Positions 13,354 through 21,442 of a stretch of DNA of 21,916 bases are shown here, piece after piece. How positions within the stretch are numbered: position 1 is the first letter of the stretch; each line of letters begins with the position of its first letter. The notes under the pieces are model-generated. The model did no database searches. It was not told where the DNA came from and saw only the letters and a program-made list of their open reading frames with translations. The translations under genes and the position numbers were made by a program. This DNA comes from a virus: IMG/VR virus record IMGVR_UViG_3300013094_000313, positions 1 to 21,916 of that record; one strand, written 5' to 3'.

Positions 13354-13401
13354 CGGTGCCAAAGGATAATTCGCCGGAGCGGTACCAAAGGATAATTCGC
13401 C
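13354..13401. repeat. 22-bp direct repeat pair
   Basis: Two copies (13354-13375 and 13380-13401) of a unit with core CCAAAGGATAATTCGCC, differing at one base and set 26 bases apart. An inverted pair CGCCGGAG (13372-13379) and CTCCGGCG (13401-13408) frames the second copy. The 11-base core CAAAGGATAAT recurs at 15916-15926, upstream of the amidoligase gene. This suggests a regulator-binding site, but no protein is known. Confidence 0.6.
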
Positions 13402-13489
13402 TCCGGCGTCCGCGCTTGCCGCGGCTTACGTATTCGTGTTTTGAGGTGACCCTTTAGGGTCGGTGAGAAACGCGACCAACACCAATACA
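13402..13489. other. Intergenic region with small hairpins
   Basis: No gene is seen. Short inverted repeats include CCGCG-CTTGC-CGCGG near 13411 and GACCCT-TT-AGGGTC near 13448. With the flanking hairpins and direct repeats, the whole 13282-13535 interval is unusually structured. It may be the 3' region of the 13036 transcript or a small RNA; no convincing promoter was found within it. Confidence 0.35.
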
Positions 13490-13533
13490 AAATTAGGGTG
13501 AGAGCAGTCTTTCGACTACTCCCACCCTAATTT
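13490..13533. terminator. Bidirectional terminator between convergent units
   Basis: A 15-base arm (13490-13504, AAATTAGGGTGAGAG) pairs with 13519-13533 with one mismatch. Inside, AGTC (13506-13509) pairs with GACT (13514-13517) around a TTTC loop. TTTATTT follows on the plus strand and a T-rich run on the minus strand. It lies just beyond the stop of the minus-strand membrane gene. Confidence 0.75.
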
Positions 13534-13535
13534 AT

Positions 13536-13712
13536 TTACTTGCGCTTGGCATTCACCCAAGTGGCCCACATGGCCCCACCAATAGAGGTGCCTGCGAACA
13601 GGGCAACTGGATCGGTGGTGTTGACTCCAACAATGGATGCTGTGTACTTGTGTACAAAAGAGTAGACAAGGTAGCCTTCAATGGCGCAAACCACGAAGGC
13701 CACCTTGTCCAT
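13536..13712 (-). CDS. Small two-span membrane protein (58 aa)
   Basis: Read from ATG 13712. A longer frame to 13796 would overlap the amidotransferase end and has no ribosome site either. Hydrophobic segments are about 4-24 (VAFVVCAIEGYLVYSFV) and 40-55 (PVALFAGTSIGGAMWATW), ending in a basic NAKRK. This is a holin-like or small envelope-protein layout. It is the last gene of the minus-strand unit with the amidotransferase and amidoligase, so it may help place their product or target at the membrane; this is inference. Confidence 0.6.
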   Translation of the reverse strand: MDKVAFVVCAIEGYLVYSFVHKYTASIVGVNTTDPVALFAGTSIGGAMWATWVNAKRK

Positions 13713-13747: not shown

Positions 13748-14653
13748 TTATGGCTTTTCCGTGGGCAGTGATTCGCGAATGTCTTCGCAAATACACTCAT
13801 CCCACGTGTCGAGGCACATTTGGCAGACGCCGCACTCCAAGCACAACTGTCCGTCTTCTGGGAGAACCCAGCCGGGGCAGGTTGTGTCAAGGCATGCCAT
13901 TCCGCCAAACAACTCTTCGTACTCTTCTTCGGTCATGGTTGACTTTGACTCAAACATGTCGTAGTCTGACCAAGTGCTCTCGCGTGCTGGCATTCGCGAC
14001 CCGTAGGTCACGTTTGCTGGCGTGCGATACGAAGGAGTGCTGCACCATGAGGTGTTAGACCACCAGAGCCCGGTGTTCTTGTCCCACGATCCGAGGCTTT
14101 CGCCCAAGATGATGACAGGTGACTCTTCGAAGATGGTGTTGAGAATTACCACCTTGGAGCGTTCGCCCTCAACGTAACCGTTGAGGATGTCCCACACGTA
14201 CGGCTTGTTCAGCGATTCGACGCCACCGAACATTGGCAGCACATCCTCCGCAAAGACCTGCGAGTCAACCCGCTGGTCGTTCTTGGGGATGCTCAAGCCA
14301 AGCATTCCGTTGTGTGCAAGCAACGCACTGGTGTCGTACTCACGCGTACCTTCTGGTACCCAGAATGGGTGACAGCCTTTCAGGTGAACCCCACCGCGTG
14401 TGGCGATGCGAGCGTGGAACAGGTGTCCCACAACTGCTTCGCCCAACTGGTCGAGTGCCGCGAAGTACGAATCGATGGCGCTTTCGGACGTCATCGAGTG
14501 GCTTGCCATGAGTCGACGGGTTGGTGTTCCTTCGACTTGTGCGTCGTACACGATTCCCCAGCCGAAGCCGTCTGGGTTGTTGATGCAACTAACGACGAGG
14601 TTAGCGCGTGTCGGCCGTTCATTGGCGGTCGTTCCTACGCACATCACGCACAT
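13748..14653 (-). CDS. Class II glutamine amidotransferase-like protein with C-terminal Cys-rich module
   Basis: 301 residues from ATG 14653, with GGAG seven bases upstream. Class II (Ntn-hydrolase) features are a Met-Cys start, NPDGFGWGI (26-34), FHARIATRG (79-87), CHPF (94-97) and LLAHNG (111-116). The nucleophile would be C2 after Met removal. An alternative ATG at 14644 also gives Met-Cys and overlaps the amidoligase stop as TGATG, so the start is uncertain by three residues. The last 50 residues hold eight cysteines (C254, C259, then CLECGVCQMC and CICE), likely one or two zinc sites. It would release ammonia from glutamine, probably for the adjacent amidoligase. Confidence 0.85.
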   Translation of the reverse strand: MCVMCVGTTANERPTRANLVVSCINNPDGFGWGIVYDAQVEGTPTRRLMASHSMTSESAIDSYFAALDQLGEAVVGHLFHARIATRGGVHLKGCHPFWVPEGTREYDTSALLAHNGMLGLSIPKNDQRVDSQVFAEDVLPMFGGVESLNKPYVWDILNGYVEGERSKVVILNTIFEESPVIILGESLGSWDKNTGLWWSNTSWCSTPSYRTPANVTYGSRMPARESTWSDYDMFESKSTMTEEEYEELFGGMACLDTTCPGWVLPEDGQLCLECGVCQMCLDTWDECICEDIRESLPTEKP

Positions 14654-15858
14654 GAGCGGTCTCCACGATTGTCGGGCGGGAGAATTTCCATGTTGAAGCG
14701 CAAGCCACGCATGATGTTCTTGGCCAGTGGCCAGTTGTCGCACGACATGACGTACTTCTTGAACTCGTCGTAGGCCAGAGCCCCGCGGATGGCATCGTAT
14801 GCGGTCATGTTGCGCGTGTACGCAATTGCTGCATCGACCAACTCAATTGAACCGATTACGCGGCCGACTGACAGCGATGGACGGAAGATACGAATTTCGA
14901 TCGTTGTTCCACCGTTGGCGCCAGTGTTGACGGCGTCGGAGTGAGCAGCCCACGTTGGGTTTTTGACCTTCATGACGGCAGCCCCTTCGATTCCGCTGAA
15001 CGACGCGTACGAGGTCTTGCGGTTGGCGAGACGGATCCAGTCTTCTGCGTTGCGCGCAAACAACATCACGAAACGAGCCGCGTGGCTGGTGGTGAAGTTC
15101 TTACGTCCAACGTGGATGTGCAAACCAGCACGAGTTTGCGACCAAGCGCGCTGACCGAGACCGCTCAATTCCTTGAGCGCTACGGCCAGTTCGGGAGCAA
15201 TTTCCCGCCACGACGCAAGCGACCGAGGGTGGCTGACAATCTCCATGCCGTAGGACAGCGAGCCGTCCGACTTGAGGTAGAAGTCGTCCATCGTGTAGTG
15301 CGTGCGGAACGCGGCGATTGCTTCGTTCAACTGGTGTGTTACGTTTTCCGACTCAAGTTCGATGCCGTAAGTGGGAGTGGGGTACCCTTGGGCTCCATTC
15401 CAGATCTCATTGCTGGCGAACTTGTGAATTGGACGTGGCTTGAAGTTGTAGGACATCAACTCTTGTTCTACGCGCTCGCAAGTGTGGTTATCCCAGTGAT
15501 TGGTTTCGCAGTTGTCGCAGTACCACGTGTTGTCGTCACATTCAGAGCAGACGTTGGATTCGTCGTCAACGCAGGTGGAACTTTCGTAGTACGAGTCGAA
15601 CCAGTTGGAGCATGAGTCACAAACCCATGATCGCAGGTTGGCGCAGTCTTCGCACCACTGCTGTTCGCCGCCCAACGTAAAGACATTCATATAGTCATAT
15701 GAATCGTTGAGCCACGCGTTGTCGCAGGTGGTTCGCTCGCAACGGGTCATGGTGTCCGAATCGAACTCCATGGTTTCTCCGTCGATGGTGGCGAATTCAG
15801 TGATGACGTCACTGGGCGCTTGTGAGTTTACGAGTTCACGCTCGTAGCCTTCAGGCAT
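14644..15858 (-). CDS. Amidoligase-family enzyme with N-terminal zinc-ribbon array
   Basis: 404 residues from ATG 15858, with GAAAGGG upstream. Residues 40-127 hold a run of CxxC-type pairs (CERTTC, CEDC, CDSC, CSEC, CDNC and a late HTC), enough for three or four zinc sites. From about 160 the protein matches the amidoligase family of glutamine synthetase-like fold: YGIELESE (164-171), KSDGSL (196-201), GMEIVSHP (204-211), AGLHIHVGR (244-252) and IEIRIFRP (320-327), with Glu, His and Arg placed to bind Mg-ATP and substrate. It overlaps the amidotransferase gene by about 10 bases. It probably joins an amine or amino acid to a carboxylate; the target is unknown. Confidence 0.82.
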   Translation of the reverse strand: MPEGYERELVNSQAPSDVITEFATIDGETMEFDSDTMTRCERTTCDNAWLNDSYDYMNVFTLGGEQQWCEDCANLRSWVCDSCSNWFDSYYESSTCVDDESNVCSECDDNTWYCDNCETNHWDNHTCERVEQELMSYNFKPRPIHKFASNEIWNGAQGYPTPTYGIELESENVTHQLNEAIAAFRTHYTMDDFYLKSDGSLSYGMEIVSHPRSLASWREIAPELAVALKELSGLGQRAWSQTRAGLHIHVGRKNFTTSHAARFVMLFARNAEDWIRLANRKTSYASFSGIEGAAVMKVKNPTWAAHSDAVNTGANGGTTIEIRIFRPSLSVGRVIGSIELVDAAIAYTRNMTAYDAIRGALAYDEFKKYVMSCDNWPLAKNIMRGLRFNMEILPPDNRGDRSCA

Positions 15859-16040
15859 ATTACCCTTTCTCGGTAACTTGTTTTCTTCCGGGACTTTCCC
15901 TTCAGATTTTGATTGCAAAGGATAATCTTGCTCTATACAAGACACCCTTCGCTGAACCCTACCGAGAGGCTTGAAAAAGCCTCTCGGTAGGGTACGACCT
16001 TCGGATTTTTTATTGCTGAACCGTTTAGGGGCGTTACCCC
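15859..16040 (-). promoter_or_regulatory. Leader region of the amidoligase unit
   Basis: About 180 bases with no gene. It holds the core repeat CAAAGGATAAT (15916-15926), which matches the 13354-13401 repeats, and the long hairpin annotated separately. On the minus strand, TTGTATAGAG near 15937-15928 could be a weak -10 region. A second short inverted pair (TAGGGG/CCCCTA, about 16026-16043) adjoins the stop of the 22-residue peptide gene. Confidence 0.4.
15956..15993. terminator. Perfect 17-bp hairpin upstream of the amidoligase
   Basis: 15956-15972 (ACCCTACCGAGAGGCTT) pairs perfectly with 15977-15993 around a GAAA loop on the plus strand. No T tract follows directly on either strand; on the plus strand a six-T run comes about 20 bases later. 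It probably ends the upstream minus-strand unit as a U-less terminator, or acts as a structured leader for the amidoligase mRNA. Confidence 0.65.
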
Positions 16041-16109
16041 CTATTTCCTTGGTTCCTCGTCGGCCTCGGCTGCGCGAGCGACCTCGCTTGCAAATTCCGT
16101 CTTGCTCAT
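16041..16109 (-). CDS. 22-residue peptide with perfect ribosome site
   Basis: ATG 16109 on the minus strand is preceded by AAAGGAGGTGAGACC, the best ribosome site on this strand. The frame ends at TAG 16041-16043. The peptide is MSKTEFASEVARAAEADEEP followed by RK: hydrophilic, with an amphipathic helix. A longer frame through 16292 exists but is arginine- and alanine-rich antisense-like sequence. Such a strong site before so short a frame suggests a real small protein or a leader peptide. Function unknown. Confidence 0.5.
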   Translation of the reverse strand: MSKTEFASEVARAAEADEEPRK

Positions 16110-16146
16110 GGTCTCACCTCCTTTCTTTCTCTTCGACTTCATGACT

Positions 16147-16323
16147 TCACCAACCGCTTCTGCGTGCTGCTTTGCGGCGGGCGCGGATACGGCGGTTGCG
16201 GCGGCGGCGGCGCTTTGCCTGTGGGCTGGTGAAGTCAGTGAACCACTCCTCGACCAAGAAGGCGAGAAGTACGAACAACATCGGCGCTGCAATCACCAGC
16301 GTTGCTTGCAGGTCAACCCACAT
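16147..16323 (-). CDS. Membrane peptide with arginine-rich tail (58 aa)
   Basis: ATG 16323 overlaps the upstream stop (TGATG) and has GGGAGGT six bases before it. Residues 8-27 (TLVIAAPMLFVLLAFLVEEW) form one membrane segment. Residues 36-56 are extremely basic (KRRRRRNRRIRARRKAARR). This would leave a highly positive tail in the cytoplasm, able to bind nucleic acid or acidic lipids. I do not recognise a family. The strong ribosome site and coupling to its neighbour support a real gene. Confidence 0.65.
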   Translation of the reverse strand: MWVDLQATLVIAAPMLFVLLAFLVEEWFTDFTSPQAKRRRRRNRRIRARRKAARRSGW

Positions 16324-16577
16324 CACATCACCTCCCAACTTGCGTCAGCGAGTTCGAGTTCGTAACGTTCGACCTCGGCTTCCCAATCGGTGATGAGGCG
16401 GTCGTACCACGCAAGAACGTAGACGGCGTCTGGGTGCCCTGCTTCCGCAAGGGCCTCAAACTCGCCAAGCGCCTTGAACGCGCCATCGCGCTCACTGGAC
16501 GGAACGCCTACCCCGTAGGTGGCGTCGAACAACTGCTTTGCAACCGTCTGAAGGGTTGCCTGAAATTCAAACTGCAT
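16323..16577 (-). CDS. Small acidic helical hypothetical protein (84 aa)
   Basis: ATG 16577 is preceded by AAAGGATACACC. The product starts MQFEFQATLQTVAKQLFDAT and continues with EFEALAEAGHPDAVYVLAWY and a long helix rich in Glu. No cysteines and no membrane segment. It overlaps the arginine-rich membrane peptide gene by one base, so the two are probably made together; its acidity could balance the basic tail of its partner. Family not recognised. Confidence 0.65.
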   Translation of the reverse strand: MQFEFQATLQTVAKQLFDATYGVGVPSSERDGAFKALGEFEALAEAGHPDAVYVLAWYDRLITDWEAEVERYELELADASWEVM

Positions 16578-16648
16578 GGTGTATCCTTTCTCGATACTTA
16601 GTTGGTTGGTTGGGCCCTTTAGCGGTGGAACCCATACCGTACTGCGAA

Positions 16649-17059
16649 CTAGGGAATCGGGTCAGGCGTGATGTGCGGACGGTACGACCAGCCGGGCACC
16701 CCAGCCTTGCGGGCGATGTCAACCATCATGGAAGTGCCTCGGGAGTCGTCTTCAGCGGGCCCGAAAAATGCCAGCACGAGGTTCGGCTTGCCTTCGTCAA
16801 GCATGCGCTGGTTTCTGATGTACCCAGCACGCTTGGGTTCGGCTGTCCAGTCGGCTTTGAACACGCTCACTTCCCACTTCCACCCACGGCCGATTTTTTC
16901 AGCGATCGTGTCGGCACCTGCAGCGCCACCCGTGATCAACTTCACGTCGGTTGCCTCAACGCCGAGGTCGGCAATTACATTGCTCAACTTGTTCCGCATG
17001 AAGGCTTCGTCCTTGAACGTGCGACTCCCACAAACCAGAATCGTTATAAACTTTCCCAT
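16649..17059 (-). CDS. SLOG/DUF2493-like nucleotide-binding protein
   Basis: 136 residues from ATG 17059; the ATG at 17065 touches the AAAGAGG ribosome site, which is six bases from 17059. The Rossmann-like SLOG pattern is clear: ILVCGSRTF (7-15), LITGGAAGAD (41-50), FKADWTAEPKRAGYIRNQRM (67-86) and GTSMMVDIARKAG (108-120). DUF2493/YspA relatives are thought to bind nucleotides or nucleotide-derived ligands, and are found in phages and near defence genes. The substrate is unknown. It is the most upstream gene of the minus-strand block, next to the large non-coding region. Confidence 0.8.
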   Translation of the reverse strand: MGKFITILVCGSRTFKDEAFMRNKLSNVIADLGVEATDVKLITGGAAGADTIAEKIGRGWKWEVSVFKADWTAEPKRAGYIRNQRMLDEGKPNLVLAFFGPAEDDSRGTSMMVDIARKAGVPGWSYRPHITPDPIP

Positions 17060-17130
17060 ACTCATCCTCTTTCCCTATGCGCGCATCTCACGCATAGTTG
17101 GGACAGGAGGACGGCGTTTGCTTTGCCACT

Positions 17131-17150
17131 CACGTTCGCTAGCGAACGTG
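17131..17150. repeat. 20-bp perfect palindrome
   Basis: CACGTTCGCTAGCGAACGTG is a perfect inverted repeat. It can fold as an 8-base stem with a CTAG loop inside the 17115-17166 helix, or act as a dimer-binding DNA site. The half-site CGAACGTG recurs at about 17174-17181. Confidence 0.6.
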
Positions 17151-17616
17151 TGGGGCTTAGCAAACGGCCGAGGCGAACGTGACAACGACGCAGTGCGTCG
17201 TTGGCGCGGGCGGCGAAGGGGGTGGATTTCGTGTGTCAACAGGGCGCGGAACGCGTCGCAGGAAGTTTTCAGAATTCCGGGGGGTCCCCGCTTGCGGGGG
17301 GCCGTAATTGTGAAAAGTTTCTGAGAAGCCTGCTAAGAATTGTGCCCCGCAGGGGCGCAATGCAGGCTCCCGTCCGTTTACGGATTGACACGCGAAATTT
17401 ATCCCGTACCGTGGAACCAACTGTGTGTGAGTTTGGCCGTAGGCGACAGGCGTAGGCCGATGGGGGGGGTTTACTCCCCCCCTCGGACAAGCCGTAGCGG
17501 CATAGGTGCGGTCAGTCCGCTTTTGGGACTGACCAAACCATAGGCCCCTTGGGGCCGGGCCGCTCGCCGCGATTCCCAGCCGGACGGTGGCGCCCGTCCA
17601 AATTGCGAGATTTGGT

Positions 17617-17756
17617 AAATTTGAGCCTGCAACAACGTGCGTTTGCTCAAAGGGTGTGAAACCTACCGAGTCCGTTAGAGAGGGGTTTCCCCGAACTTAC
17701 GGATCGTTGGGTTTACGCCCTCGCAAACGTGCGTTGTAAATGCAGGCTGCAAATTT
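17617..17756 (+). other. 140-base rod-like helix within the giant RNA
   Basis: Successive paired segments are 17617-17623/17750-17756, 17624-17631/17741-17748, 17632-17646/17723-17737 and 17651-17664/17709-17721, with small bulges. The end carries TCCGT/ACGGA (17671-17675/17699-17703) and GGGG-TTT-CCCC. There are over 40 base pairs in total, with G-U pairs at 17638-17731, 17639-17730, 17655-17717 and 17664-17709. Confidence 0.7.
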
Positions 17757-18537
17757 AGGGCGACACCCATGAACCGGGAGGGGCCCGTGCAGTAAGATGA
17801 CGACGCCCCCGTCGGCGTCTTACTAGCGGGAGGATCCCGGATTAGTCGGCTTTAGCCGTCTTGCTAATCCAACGCCTTCCCCTCCAATTTGTTTCTCATT
17901 CTGGCTGGTTGCAAGCGGAACTGCAAACTTTGGAAGGTATCCCTTCCAAGTTTGCCCGGGAGGATATGGAACCGGGTAGGTTCCGTAAAATGCGAGGCGC
18001 ACATATTCTGGTGTGGAAAAAAACTCTGTGTTTACCAGCGACTTGACCGGGTGTGTGCCGAGCCCGTCTTGCTACCAAGAGTTGTTATCCCCTCTACCGA
18101 AAACTGTCATTCTCGTCACCAAGCCAGGCGCCGCGGTCGCGGCCGCGGCTATGCGTTGTATCTATCAAAAGTACTATCAGTGGGTTTCATCCGCGGCGGA
18201 AGGTTTTCTACCTCGGGATTATGGGGGCTAGTATCGTTTGCTCACAACTCTGCCCGCATTTCCCTCAACTCCGAAGAGTCTGCAATACCTGTTCCGCACG
18301 GCGCAAGGACTGTTTGTGGAGCAATGCAACTCCTCAACTCTTCCCCAAAGCAACCAAATTGCATTCAGGGTGCGCCAACCGAATCCCGCTCTAACCGGGT
18401 AACTGCGGCGAGTATTCCTAGGAACTCACACTCCGCGGGGACTCCCACCCACGACCGCTGCCAATGGCGATATACCCATGATACACCACCGAGGCCGCGG
18501 TGCAACACCTTTTGGCGTAACTTTTTGGGATCACCGC

Positions 18538-18546
18538 TGGTACACT
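18538..18546 (+). promoter_or_regulatory. Extended -10 promoter for the Cys-rich peptide
   Basis: TGG-TACACT, the same TGn plus TAYAnT form seen elsewhere in the window. A start near 18553 leaves a leader of about 24 bases containing AAAGGA before the ATG at 18577. Confidence 0.55.
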
Positions 18547-18576
18547 TGTATGTACTCTTAAACAAAGGAAAAAACA

Positions 18577-18693
18577 ATGTGTATCACCTGCGGCTGCGAC
18601 AAGATGTGTAACTGCCCCGGTTGCGCGGCGCTTGCGGCGAAGTTCGAGAGCAAGCCCATTAGCGATAACCCTCCGGCCCCAGACGCCTACTGA
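18577..18693 (+). CDS. 38-residue cysteine-rich peptide
   Basis: ATG 18577 follows AAACAAAGGAAAAAAC, a good ribosome site, and the frame ends at TGA 18691-18693. The first 16 residues, MCITCGCDKMCNCPGC, hold six cysteines (2, 5, 7, 11, 13, 16). The rest is AALAAKFESKPISDNPPAPD plus AY. CITCGC fits the CxxCGC nickel-binding motif at the N-terminus of HypB proteins, and the cysteine density recalls metallothioneins; this is likeness, not shown homology. It probably binds a metal or a cluster. It sits alone between the giant RNA and the small-RNA units, with its own promoter. Confidence 0.7.
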   Translation: MCITCGCDKMCNCPGCAALAAKFESKPISDNPPAPDAY

Positions 18694-18747
18694 TTCAAAT
18701 TGTATGAGATTCGGCGGCACACTGGCCCCCCTTCTCTGCCCTCCATC

Positions 18748-18756
18748 TGATATAAT
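18748..18756 (+). promoter_or_regulatory. Extended -10 promoter of small RNA unit 1
   Basis: TGA-TATAAT, a consensus extended -10 box with no clear -35. The start would be near 18763. No ribosome site or credible frame follows before the terminator at 18801. Confidence 0.6.
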
Positions 18757-18762
18757 GTTTGT

Positions 18763-18828
18763 ACCTACATTGCGATCCGTCTTGCTCATAGATGCAAATT
18801 GGCCCCCGTCTCCGGACGGGGCCTTTTT
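18763..18828 (+). ncRNA. Candidate small RNA 1 (about 66 nt)
   Basis: Bounded by the promoter at 18748 and an intrinsic terminator (18801-18828). The free 5' part is about 38 bases and includes GATGCAAATTGG (18791-18802). It has no ribosome site and no useful frame. Ends are predicted from the promoter and terminator only. Confidence 0.5.
18801..18828 (+). terminator. Intrinsic terminator of small RNA unit 1
   Basis: GGCCCCCGTC (18801-18810) pairs with GACGGGGCC (18815-18823) with one bulged C and a TCCG loop, followed by TTTTT (18824-18828). Confidence 0.85.
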
Positions 18829-18836
18829 GCAAGTTT

Positions 18837-18866
18837 GCACCCCGGTGCTTTAAAAATTTTTTTACC
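18837..18866 (+). terminator. Back-up terminator-like hairpin
   Basis: GCACC-CC-GGTGC (18837-18848) is followed by TTTAAAAATTTTTTT. It lies directly after the first terminator and could catch read-through. Confidence 0.45.
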
Positions 18867-18892
18867 CCTTTGCACACATACGGTCCCACCCG

Positions 18893-18901
18893 TGATACAC
18901 T
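18893..18901 (+). promoter_or_regulatory. Extended -10 promoter of small RNA unit 2
   Basis: TGA-TACACT, with TTGCAC (18870-18875) 20 bases upstream, a longer spacer than usual. The start would be near 18908. Confidence 0.55.
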
Positions 18902-18907
18902 GGGAAC

Positions 18908-18978
18908 GTCCCTCCTCAGGACGCTCACACAAAACCCTTCCACAAAAATCCCCACCGTAACTGGTGGGGATTTTTGTG
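18908..18978 (+). ncRNA. Candidate small RNA 2 (about 70 nt)
   Basis: Starts after the 18893 promoter and ends in a very strong intrinsic terminator. A 5' hairpin (CGTCC 18907-18911 with GGACG 18919-18923) is followed by an unstructured A/C-rich stretch. No ribosome site or frame is present. It has the same promoter-insert-terminator plan as unit 1. Confidence 0.5.
18941..18978 (+). terminator. Strong intrinsic terminator of small RNA unit 2
   Basis: 18941-18956 pairs perfectly with 18963-18978 (16 bases, core ATCCCCACC/GGTGGGGAT) around GTAACT, with five T in the right arm. The -10 box of the next gene begins at the next base. Confidence 0.85.
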
Positions 18979-18984
18979 TATACT
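18979..18984 (+). promoter_or_regulatory. -10 box of a leaderless gene
   Basis: TATACT with six bases (GAATAC) before the ATG at 18991, so transcription would begin at the start codon. No good -35 box exists, because that region is the terminator hairpin. Confidence 0.5.
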
Positions 18985-18990
18985 GAATAC

Positions 18991-19281
18991 ATGACCAAGC
19001 ACATCAGCACACACATCACGGCCCTGTTGTCAGGGGCTACCGCCATTGTTGCCCTGATTCACCCGGGCTTCAACTTAAACCCTGTTGTACAGGCCATCAG
19101 TTTTACGGTGCCCGCATTGTTTGCGGCTGCCCTTGAGGCCCTGCACTTTCTGAAGAAGCACAGCTTGGAAGCGGACAGCATTGCTGCGGTTCATTTCATT
19201 AACAACATCCTGGCTCAGTCAGAAGCCGTTCCTGCCGCTCCGGTTGTTCCTGCTGCTCCCACCGAGACACCCCAGGCCTAA
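18991..19281 (+). CDS. Small membrane protein, holin-like, likely leaderless
   Basis: 96 residues from ATG 18991. An in-frame GTG at 18964 lies inside the terminator and is rejected. There is no ribosome site. Hydrophobic segments are about 8-25 (HITALLSGATAIVALIH) and 34-52 (AISFTVPALFAAALEALHF). A helix follows, then a Pro/Ala tail (VPAAPVVPAAPTETPQA). The two-span layout is holin-like, but the gene lies beside terminase, away from the lysis cassette. Its stop overlaps the next ATG (TAATG). Function uncertain. Confidence 0.7.
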   Translation: MTKHISTHITALLSGATAIVALIHPGFNLNPVVQAISFTVPALFAAALEALHFLKKHSLEADSIAAVHFINNILAQSEAVPAAPVVPAAPTETPQA

Positions 19282-19529
19282 TGCCTTCCGAGGACTCAAT
19301 CGCAACCTCGCTACGGCAATGGTTGGATGAGAACCTTCCGAAGTTTTTGACGACCATTAACCACGACCTTGATAAAAGTGAAGAGTGGAAAATGCCAGTC
19401 ATCGAGGACTACTGCCTCGTCGTCGCTGTCAGTGATTACAGCGACGGCGGGGGCGGTGTCTTTACAATTTACGGGAATACTCCAACGTATCGAGTAGCAG
19501 GACTGCTGACGACCGCATTAAATAGTTAA
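19281..19529 (+). CDS. Small hypothetical protein upstream of terminase (82 aa)
   Basis: Overlaps its neighbours by one base on both sides (TAATG). The product starts MPSEDSIATSLRQWLDENLP and ends with a hydrophobic strand and RVAGLLTTALNS. The pattern, an N-terminal helix, a VVAV strand, an acidic Gly-rich turn and a C-terminal GLL helix, resembles short proteins I recall just upstream of terminase in other actinophages. Its role is unknown; a packaging accessory is possible. Confidence 0.7.
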   Translation: MPSEDSIATSLRQWLDENLPKFLTTINHDLDKSEEWKMPVIEDYCLVVAVSDYSDGGGGVFTIYGNTPTYRVAGLLTTALNS

Positions 19530-21442
19530 TGGCTGTTACTCCCGCCCAACGCAAGAAATACTTTGAAGCGCGCACGGCTGGTTTCTCCATTGCCGACAGC
19601 GCCCGCAAAGCAAAGTTTTCGGAAGCTACGGCTTACCGCGTAGAAAAAGCCGCCCAAACGCTAAAAGCGACAGATCAAATGGACACGTCAGCGTCCAACT
19701 ACCGAGAACTTAAAGTAGAAGCCAAGCTTGAAGGGCCCAAGCCATACGACAGTTTGTGCGAAGAAGCCAAGCTGGCCCTAGAGGATTTTGGGTATTTTCG
19801 GCGCCGGTACTTTGGGCGCATTGCCACGCCGTGGCAAGAAGAAGCCGGTACTGAACTGGTCAAGCTCTTAGAGTCTGAGCAAAAAGAATACGTGGTCATG
19901 AACATGCCCCCGGGTTCTGGTAAAACGACCCTGCTCCACGATTTGACGTGCTGGATCATTTGCCGAAACCGAGCAGTGCGTTTGCTGACTGGATCGGCCA
20001 CAATGAGCCTGGCTAAGCGAAACCTAATGCGCGTTCGCCGTTCCCTAGAGCGTGTCATTCCTGAATTGGCCGATGACAACCTTAAAGCCCGTGGCCAAGC
20101 GGTCGACGCCGAATCAACCCTAGCCTTTGACTTTGGCCGGTTTAAGCCTTTGGAAAAAGAGCTTTGGACCAATGAAGCATTTATTGTTATGCAGCCCGAA
20201 GAAAACGGTGCTATCTCAGAAAAAGAACCAACGCTCAGTGCTTACGGTATGGACTCAGGTTTTATTGGTGGCCGCTTTGATGGTTGTTTTTGGGACGACC
20301 TTGTGGACCCTCGTAAAGTACGAAGTGCTGAACAGCGAGAAGCCATGGAGGACTGGTACCAAGACGTGGCCGAGACTCGTCTGGAACCCGCTGGCATGCT
20401 TGCCCTTATTGGCCAGCGACTTGCTCCTGATGACCTATATCGCTTTGCGCTGGACATGATCCAGCCCTTGGAGGAAGATGAAATACTTGACGAACTTACC
20501 GATGATGAAATCGCCAGTCTCCGACACGACAAGAAGTACAAGCACCTGCTGTACCGTGCCCATTACGAAGATCGATGCGACCCCGCTTTCCACAAAAGAG
20601 GATCTGAAGCGTATCCTAAGGGTTGCCTTTTGGACCCCCGTCGACTCCCATGGCGCGAAGTATCGAATCTTATGTCAAACCGTGGTGAACGCTTTGCGGT
20701 CGTCTACCAGCAAGAAGACATTGCGCTAGATGAGACGCTGGTTCGGAATGAATGGGTCTACGGACACGGAGGGAGCGTGGGGTGCATTGACAAAGATCGA
20801 GACCGTTGGGAGACACCCCCGGGGCTTAATCCAGCCGATTGCATGGTTATCGCCACGGCAGACCCGTCGCCAACTAACTATTGGTCGATTCAATGCTGGC
20901 TATACCATCCTGAAAGCCAACAACGGTTTTTGCTTGACCTTATTCGCAAGAAAATGGAAGCCCCGGAGTTTTTGGAATACAACTACAATCTCGGTGAATT
21001 CACTGGGGTCATGGAAGAATGGCAGCGTTTATCGACCAGTATCGGTTTCCCGATACAGTGGTGGATTATTGAACAAAATGCCGCCCAGCGATTCATGCTC
21101 CAGTACGACCATTTCAAAAGATGGCGGCAACTCAGCGGCGTCGAAGTAATTCCTCACAATACCACCAGTAACAAAAGTGACCCAAATTATGGTGTTACGA
21201 CGATTTCCCAACATTGGCGATTTGGTCGTGTAAGATTGATGGGTAAGGGTGAAGGCAAAACCCGGTCGATGCATCTTATTGACGAGGTAACCAAGTACCC
21301 TCACGGGCGTACAGACGACTGCGTAATGGCGGAATGGTTCTTTGAATGGAACATTCCAAACTTGCACCAGCCACGATCCATTGCGGTCCAGGCATGGCGC
21401 CCCAAGTGGGTACGCAACACCCAACTAGCGAACTTGAGGTAA
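19529..21442 (+). CDS. terL: Terminase large subunit
   Basis: 637 residues. The N-terminal 45 residues resemble a helix-turn-helix (FSIADSARKAKFSEATAYRV), which is unusual for a large subunit and may do a DNA-recognition job of a small subunit. The ATPase part has Walker A PPGSGKTT (127-134), GSATMSLAKRN (155-165) and a Walker B-like CFWDDLVD (253-260), then LIGQRLAP. The RNase H-like nuclease has ATADPSP (D445), WWIIEQN (E515) and GRTDDCVMAEWF (D596, D597). It pumps DNA into the prohead and cuts it. No separate small-subunit gene is seen in the window. Confidence 0.95.
   Translation: MAVTPAQRKKYFEARTAGFSIADSARKAKFSEATAYRVEKAAQTLKATDQMDTSASNYRELKVEAKLEGPKPYDSLCEEAKLALEDFGYFRRRYFGRIATPWQEEAGTELVKLLESEQKEYVVMNMPPGSGKTTLLHDLTCWIICRNRAVRLLTGSATMSLAKRNLMRVRRSLERVIPELADDNLKARGQAVDAESTLAFDFGRFKPLEKELWTNEAFIVMQPEENGAISEKEPTLSAYGMDSGFIGGRFDGCFWDDLVDPRKVRSAEQREAMEDWYQDVAETRLEPAGMLALIGQRLAPDDLYRFALDMIQPLEEDEILDELTDDEIASLRHDKKYKHLLYRAHYEDRCDPAFHKRGSEAYPKGCLLDPRRLPWREVSNLMSNRGERFAVVYQQEDIALDETLVRNEWVYGHGGSVGCIDKDRDRWETPPGLNPADCMVIATADPSPTNYWSIQCWLYHPESQQRFLLDLIRKKMEAPEFLEYNYNLGEFTGVMEEWQRLSTSIGFPIQWWIIEQNAAQRFMLQYDHFKRWRQLSGVEVIPHNTTSNKSDPNYGVTTISQHWRFGRVRLMGKGEGKTRSMHLIDEVTKYPHGRTDDCVMAEWFFEWNIPNLHQPRSIAVQAWRPKWVRNTQLANLR

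Follow-up and report, generated by a model that had tools for sequence, protein, structure and literature searches.

A probable new family of structured non-coding RNAs encoded beside phage terminase genes

Location and extent of the conserved domain

Does the stretch at 17066-18535, proposed in an initial annotation as a giant ornate non-coding RNA of about 1.47 kb, encode a structured RNA, and if so, over what extent, on which strand and of what kind? The window, by which we mean the entire stretch of DNA analysed, is the 21,916-base virus record IMGVR_UViG_3300013094_000313. Among the proteins it encodes are two WhiB-like regulators, an Erf-like annealing protein, an SSB, a RusA-like resolvase and the terminase large subunit. 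Because of the WhiB-like regulators and the rest of this gene set the host is likely actinobacterial. The region is flanked on the left by minus-strand genes, one of which reaches 17065, and on the right by packaging genes, the placement that the annotation had described. We consider it probable that the locus belongs to a new family of structured non-coding RNAs encoded by phages, and that the RNA is located on the minus strand and divergent from the packaging operon.

The accessory block to the left (13748-17065, minus strand) encodes class-II glutamine amidotransferase-like, amidoligase-like and SLOG-family proteins, the first two calls being both slightly below the Pfam cut-offs. A second strongly folding stretch lies at the start of the amidoligase-like gene (15801-16100; z -6.1 and -5.5 in 200-nt windows).

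A search of IMG/VR with the terminase gave 113 relatives, and the best 80 of the 113 loci were kept. In nucleotide comparisons, only the right end of 17066-18535 is conserved beyond one near-identical locus (L004) and its identical copies. The conserved domain measures 474 nt in the window, where it extends from 18046 to about 18519, and 407-647 nt across 34 lineages (less than 97% identity), which are the remainder of 87 long loci after a 97% identity filter. The idea of one conserved 1.47-kb molecule is not supported, as conservation is confined to this domain and only near-identical kin can be aligned over the GC-rich hairpins. No credible gene is present in 17066-18535, where longer mechanical ORFs do occur. 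A conserved frame was sought in 18372-18492 and none is open across all 34 lineages, the best being open in 12 of 34, which agrees with the annotated non-coding nature. The features of the locus at this scale are listed below, with the strand that we favour for the RNA.

~18046..18525, minus strand: whole conserved RNA domain, from the 34-lineage alignment, with blocks CUCGGCACACACCCGGUCA, GAGAAUGACAGUU and UGACAGUG on the RNA strand
17862..17890, minus strand: semi-conserved G-rich element (GGG..GAUGGGCUUA in relatives), seen by eye in an alignment of 34 flanks
17100..17860, strand unassigned: nested GC-rich hairpin array, lineage-specific, aligning only with L004 and identical copies; candidate part of the RNA
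18577..18693, plus strand: Cys-rich ORF of 38 aa (tblastn), right of the RNA and its neighbour in part of the relatives too

The core of the domain (model R1) was matched in 50 of the best 80 terminase loci and in the window, with all 51 matches in the same orientation relative to the terminase. A DNA pattern search returned 53 stretches, 15 of them on new contigs, and a second model confirmed 15 of these 15. Among 49 newly fetched loci, 42 have the terminase to the right of the core, and the other seven end at most 1.4 kb from the core. When 30 chosen records were searched in full, 19 matched, 18 with one copy and one 65-kb record with two; the record of L059 was a new match. The total comes to 65 IMG/VR contigs (49 + 15 + 1) besides the window's record, many of them near-identical. 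The homologues share a non-coding domain with a covariation-backed fold (see below) and a fixed place beside the terminase genes, usually as one copy per record. One contig of 64,966 bases, IMGVR_UViG_3300025400_000015 (L004 and L005), carries two copies of the RNA and a pair of terminases (99% and 91% like that of the window), and therefore probably contains two phages.

Thirty terminase loci were unmatched. Absence of the RNA says little at 24 of them, because they extend no more than 2.2 kb to the left of the terminase. Model searches with filters off gave nothing significant in L040, L061, L067, L070, L077 and L078, and of these, L077 and L078, with 60% terminase identity and records of about 40 kb, lack the RNA. 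The best sub-threshold match (L067:630-897, minus strand; full-length, 6.3 bits, E 0.84) lies left of a terminase 66% identical to that of the window and is either a very distant copy or chance. In cultured phages the core DNA had no real match. The terminase matched 34 cultured phage records, all below 60% identity, and the 30 listed share 23-30% over at most 57% of the protein. By these comparisons the RNA-bearing phages are one group without close cultured kin. One exact pattern gave 0 matches in species genomes; the pattern is narrow, because it allows only A or C at a position that is G in the window itself.

Folding energy, on which the initial annotation had relied, is indeed exceptional in part of the region. 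The stretch 17060-18050 has z-scores of -11.1 (plus) and -11.7 (minus), with none of 20 dinucleotide shuffles as stable, and three long inverted repeats (17115-17166, 17178-17208 and 17505-17539) were verified, so that both the strong folding and these repeats are real. In 200-nt windows the excess sits in 17001-18100 (z -2.5 to -7.5), while 18001-18600 gives values from 1.5 to -1.3; single strong windows occur elsewhere at 15801-16000 (z -6.1) and 13401-13600 (z -5.0), and the mean outside is -0.8. Folded as single sequences, the conserved domains show nothing unusual (median z -0.3). Of the three thirds of the region, the one with the conserved RNA is poorest in hairpins, and evolution keeps something other than the hairpins. 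With only the right end conserved and the domain folding in an ordinary way, the annotation therefore reached the right place via the wrong feature. The conspicuous hairpins are one part of the region and the conserved RNA another, which should caution any scan that ranks candidates on folding energy.

The hairpins at 17100-17860 may or may not be part of the RNA. It is conceivable, if rather doubtful, that the whole 1.4 kb including these hairpins forms one giant ornate RNA with a variable arm of each lineage's own, a reading compatible with the family proposed here. The array is continuous with the domain, nested and very stable, and by analogy GOLLD, with its variable 5' region, might offer a parallel. 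For the flank before the domain, z is -9.1 in the window and -10.6 in L004; this flank is also very stable in L019 (extreme) and moderately so in L079 and L091. However, the median over 33 lineages is -1.2, without significant excess of structure over a downstream control (p 0.15). The 12 differences between the window and L004 in 17100-18050 also speak against this reading, as nine fall in predicted pairs, five breaking and four keeping them.

Structure of the RNA core

Alignments A2 and A3 hold 32 of the 34 lineages, L053 and L060 being excluded as too divergent; L053, L060, L056, L058, L066 and L071 served as held-out tests. In the minus-strand alignment, 93.4% of the cells in 37 pairs are paired and 23 of the 37 pairs vary on both sides, against 31-45% of cells paired in sliding controls, and covariation thus supports the annotated structured RNA. 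The covariation score is 0.374 on this strand, compared with 0.142 in shuffles, and 0.280 on the plus strand. Read as plus, the 32 lineages have 88.4% of cells paired and both-side changes in 24 of 38 pairs, and sliding the partners by 1-3 columns leaves 31-41% paired. RNAalifold gave 22 pairs on 31 loci, 10 of them changed on both sides, and 22 pairs on 32 lineages, eight of them changed on both sides. Under an in-house tree-based null with 40 simulations and rough E-values, E<=0.05 was reached by five column pairs out of 106,953. The final model contains four of them unchanged; the remaining one, 18300-18375, corresponds to helix P1 in its majority register. The core comprises the following elements.

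18296..18525, minus strand: RNA core (model R2), 230 nt, 37 pairs in nine helices, from covariation in 32 lineages; single match in the window, 181 bits
18300..18376, minus strand: helix P1, arms 18300-18304 and 18372-18376; fully complementary over 5-6 bp in 32 of 34 lineages, through nine variants
18312..18338, minus strand: hairpin Pa, two short stems; both-side changes in six of seven pairs
18343..18372, minus strand: hairpin Pb, loosely aligned; 75.8% of cells paired, outermost base overlapping P1 in the window
18385..18399, minus strand: hairpin P2, stem CCCG/CGGG, loop GUUAGAG; outer pair CG/GU/AU
18405..18436, minus strand: helix P3, variable apical arm, arms 18405-18413 and 18424-18436; 100% of outer and 95.3% of inner cells paired
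18438..18450, minus strand: hairpin P4, T-loop-like loop UGNRAGY in 32 of 32; stem swap CG 17/GC 15
18454..18471, minus strand: hairpin P5; 18457-18468 is AU in 16 and GC in 16, and 18455-18470 shows all six standard types

The arms of P1 include the variants GGCGC/GCGCC, GAACAC/GTGTTC, GAGCAT/ATGCTC and TGTCGC/GCGACA, the exceptions being L053 and L122. This helix was found by inspection, and its count is that of the best run among candidate motifs. The P2 loop GUUAGAG occurs in 46 of 47 full-length model matches, with L058 deviating. Its invariance among the 34 lineages is by construction, because all 87 long loci were picked by a pattern containing that loop; the fair counts are those from the 31 loci found by nhmmer and from the 46 of 47 model matches.

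A plus-strand closing helix GCG/CGU proposed by RNAalifold was dropped, because none of its pairs changed on both sides and P1 fits the same bases better. A kissing interaction of the P2 loop was also rejected for either strand; a complementary 7-mer within 900 bases to its left or 170 to its right exists in only three of 34 lineages. Long-range helices between the domain ends are suggestive in single clades and not universal. The G-rich element lies about 160-180 nt left of the domain, beyond its 3' end.

Probable strand and independence of the RNA

The initial annotation had expected a plus-strand transcript. We find instead that the RNA very probably lies on the minus strand, running leftward and divergent from the packaging genes, a judgement that depends mostly on three variable pairs. 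Pairs 18385-18399, 18405-18436 and 18455-18470 are non-standard on the plus strand in 12, 20 and 17 of 32 lineages, respectively, and standard on the minus strand in 32 of 32. An A.C on one strand is a G.U on the other; read as plus, the non-Watson-Crick cells comprise 79 A.C and 47 G.U, 29 of the latter being one invariant pair. For an identical set of 38 pairs, the share of standard cells is 91.1% on minus and 88.4% on plus. The minus model omits the invariant pair (U.G on plus), without which the minus strand has 93.4% standard cells, 77 G.U and 18 A.C.

Further measures point to the minus strand to varying degrees. Consensus energies (from a script implementing RNAalifold) are -71.6/-69.8 on minus and -59.4/-58.1 on plus. 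On a tree built from the same domain, changes on the minus strand number 27 into G.U and 12 into A.C (p 0.024), or 13.5 to 5 for the well-aligned helices alone (p about 0.06-0.1). In 32 of 34 lineages the single core folds more stably on minus, partly through composition, and its z-score is lower on minus in 23 of 34 (p 0.014; coding control 13 of 34). The T-loop-like loop of P4, UGNRAGY, appears on this strand in 32 of 32.

Some observations lean the other way. The six held-out relatives are about equal, three scoring higher on each strand (plus/minus bits 87.7/81.7, 77.2/76.6, 64.6/70.2, 61.5/65.6, 39.8/44.2 and 25.5/21.2), and the window itself scores higher on plus (196.5/181.1). The invariant U.G beside the P5 loop (29 of 31) favours plus if it is paired. 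At least six T in eight positions are found in three of 34 minus 3' flanks versus 11 of 34 plus 3' flanks, and the mean T-run values (minus 4.29, shuffled 4.25; plus 5.18, shuffled 4.93) also lean to plus.

These observations bear on the possibility, which we regard as improbable, that the RNA is on the plus strand and heads the packaging operon as a long 5' leader, with a cis role in antitermination or translation control. In its favour, place and orientation left of the plus-strand genes are fixed, with all 51 matches on the terminase strand and, in 42 of 49 further loci, a terminase to the right; T-runs follow GUAAC in several lineages, and plus gives the higher score for the window and for three of the six held-out relatives. 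Against it stand the 79 A.C versus 47 G.U cells and the three variable pairs that only G.U on minus explains, as well as the consensus energy and the loop motif. Many relatives, by eye, also have a plus-strand promoter-like site after the RNA.

A leader on the minus strand, belonging to the accessory genes (the SLOG-family protein at 17065 and beyond), is equally hard to sustain. The next minus-strand gene of the window does start at 17065, but the left neighbour is on plus or different in other lineages, and the minus-strand operon of L123 has its own TTGACA promoter-like site, by eye. Among 25 lineages with a left ORF of at least 130 aa, the nearest is on plus in 15 and on minus in 10, some of the ORFs counted (the window's included) being mechanical. 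In L115, L057 and L063 the left gene is a plus-strand phrog_25883, of the same family as the window's minus-strand gene at 13748-14743. The RNA keeps its packaging-side place while the left block turns round, which argues against a leader of the left genes. A DNA site (pac, cos or origin) that folds by chance would suit the constant position beside the terminase genes and is very improbable given the compensatory changes over many helices and the strand-asymmetric wobble pairs.

A stand-alone transcript from the minus strand is the most likely form of the RNA, since the left neighbour genes vary in identity and orientation between lineages. For its transcription, ends, independence and any function, we infer the following. 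Transcription would proceed leftward from the intergenic space at ~18525-18560; the RNA would start near GUUACGCC at ~18520 and run through the domain to ~18046 or 17860, independent of any gene and not as a leader. No convincing minus-strand promoter was recognised; in 16600-19600 the sole minus-strand promoter-like match falls within the domain and does not exceed chance expectation. A run of seven T (18016-18022, minus strand) is present in the window and L004, and the flank of L091 has a run of six elsewhere.

Known RNA families, possible mechanism and flanking elements

The annotation had raised membership of GOLLD, ROOL or another Rfam family, and a covariance-model check gave no match. 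Nothing in the window reached a gathering score, and GOLLD and ROOL were not matched at E<=10 in 16300-19300; weak matches to IMES-4, NPPA-AS1_3, mir-1001 and Tombus_3_III are far under their gathering scores. Among the relatives scanned, GOLLD was not among the Rfam matches. By the tests made, the RNA is thus neither GOLLD nor ROOL. No tRNA or tmRNA was detected in the 21.9-kb record, and L053 has one marginal tRNA (29.8 bits, cut-off 29).

In GOLLD the 3' region is universally conserved and the 5' region less so; its genes are often near tRNA islands, its expression rises at lysis, and it forms a 14-mer cage. GOLLD is described as a large structured phage RNA with one conserved and one variable region, ROOL as a large phage-borne RNA, and the functions of both as poorly understood (PMC12286853). 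The RNA described here resembles GOLLD as a large structured phage RNA with a conserved and a variable region, and ROOL as a large RNA borne by phage. Unlike in GOLLD, the conserved part would be 5' on the minus strand (on plus it would be 3', as in GOLLD), and the conserved domain spans just 0.4-0.65 kb. It differs from both in lacking an Rfam match and in the absence of tRNA from the window. In the literature searched, with most subscription papers outside reach, we found no paper on this RNA. It would add a deeply covarying family for which a 37-pair model, a probable strand and a constant genomic position are available, so that lake metatranscriptomes and in vitro folding could test it directly.

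T-loops follow the pattern UNNRA, found in tRNA and several other RNAs. The loop of P4 (UGNRAGY) fits this pattern and is closed by G-C, a resemblance at the level of sequence. The P2 loop with its flanks, GGUUAGAGC, resembles a tRNA D arm; we treat both resemblances as leads only. We tentatively suggest that the RNA acts in trans, is made compact via T-loop-type contacts, and might bind a host or phage machine (ribosome, tRNA or RNA polymerase) or its own copies, in analogy to GOLLD and ROOL. More speculatively, and with a good deal less confidence, it could represent a new class of stand-alone ornate phage RNA, in which a conserved 0.5-0.7-kb minus-strand domain with tRNA-elbow-like contacts and a fast-evolving hairpin arm of at most 0.8 kb would act on tRNA or ribosomes or self-assemble during infection.

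Several elements were observed around the domain. A palindrome TGTGAA....TTCAC, whose shape we take to be like that of a CRP-family site, lies just outside the right end of the core in nine of 34 lineages (L012, L019, L022, L026, L027, L063, L079, L091 and L123; +129 to +166 from the core pattern). In L123, L012 and L022 a similar sequence recurs, by eye, beyond the other end of the RNA. Type II hammerhead ribozymes (RF02276, above gathering score) occur at L012:3873-3934 (minus), L022:3709-3770 (minus) and L123:3071-3132 (plus). In L123 the ribozyme follows the stop of a small gene and precedes the start of the next one in a same-strand operon. Hammerhead cleavage as 3' processing of this RNA was rejected, because that ribozyme sits between two small genes, past another promoter-like site.

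To the right, the window has a possible short plus-strand RNA at 18748-18829, with TGATATAAT at 18748-18756 and a strong hairpin followed by a T-run from 18801. At this place many relatives show, by eye, TTGACA..TATAGT together with a short piece of non-coding sequence and a hairpin resembling a terminator. Further on, at 18944-18975, a very stable symmetrical hairpin (AAAAATCCCCACC GTAACT GGTGGGGATTTTT) is possibly a two-way terminator near the ORF at 18964.
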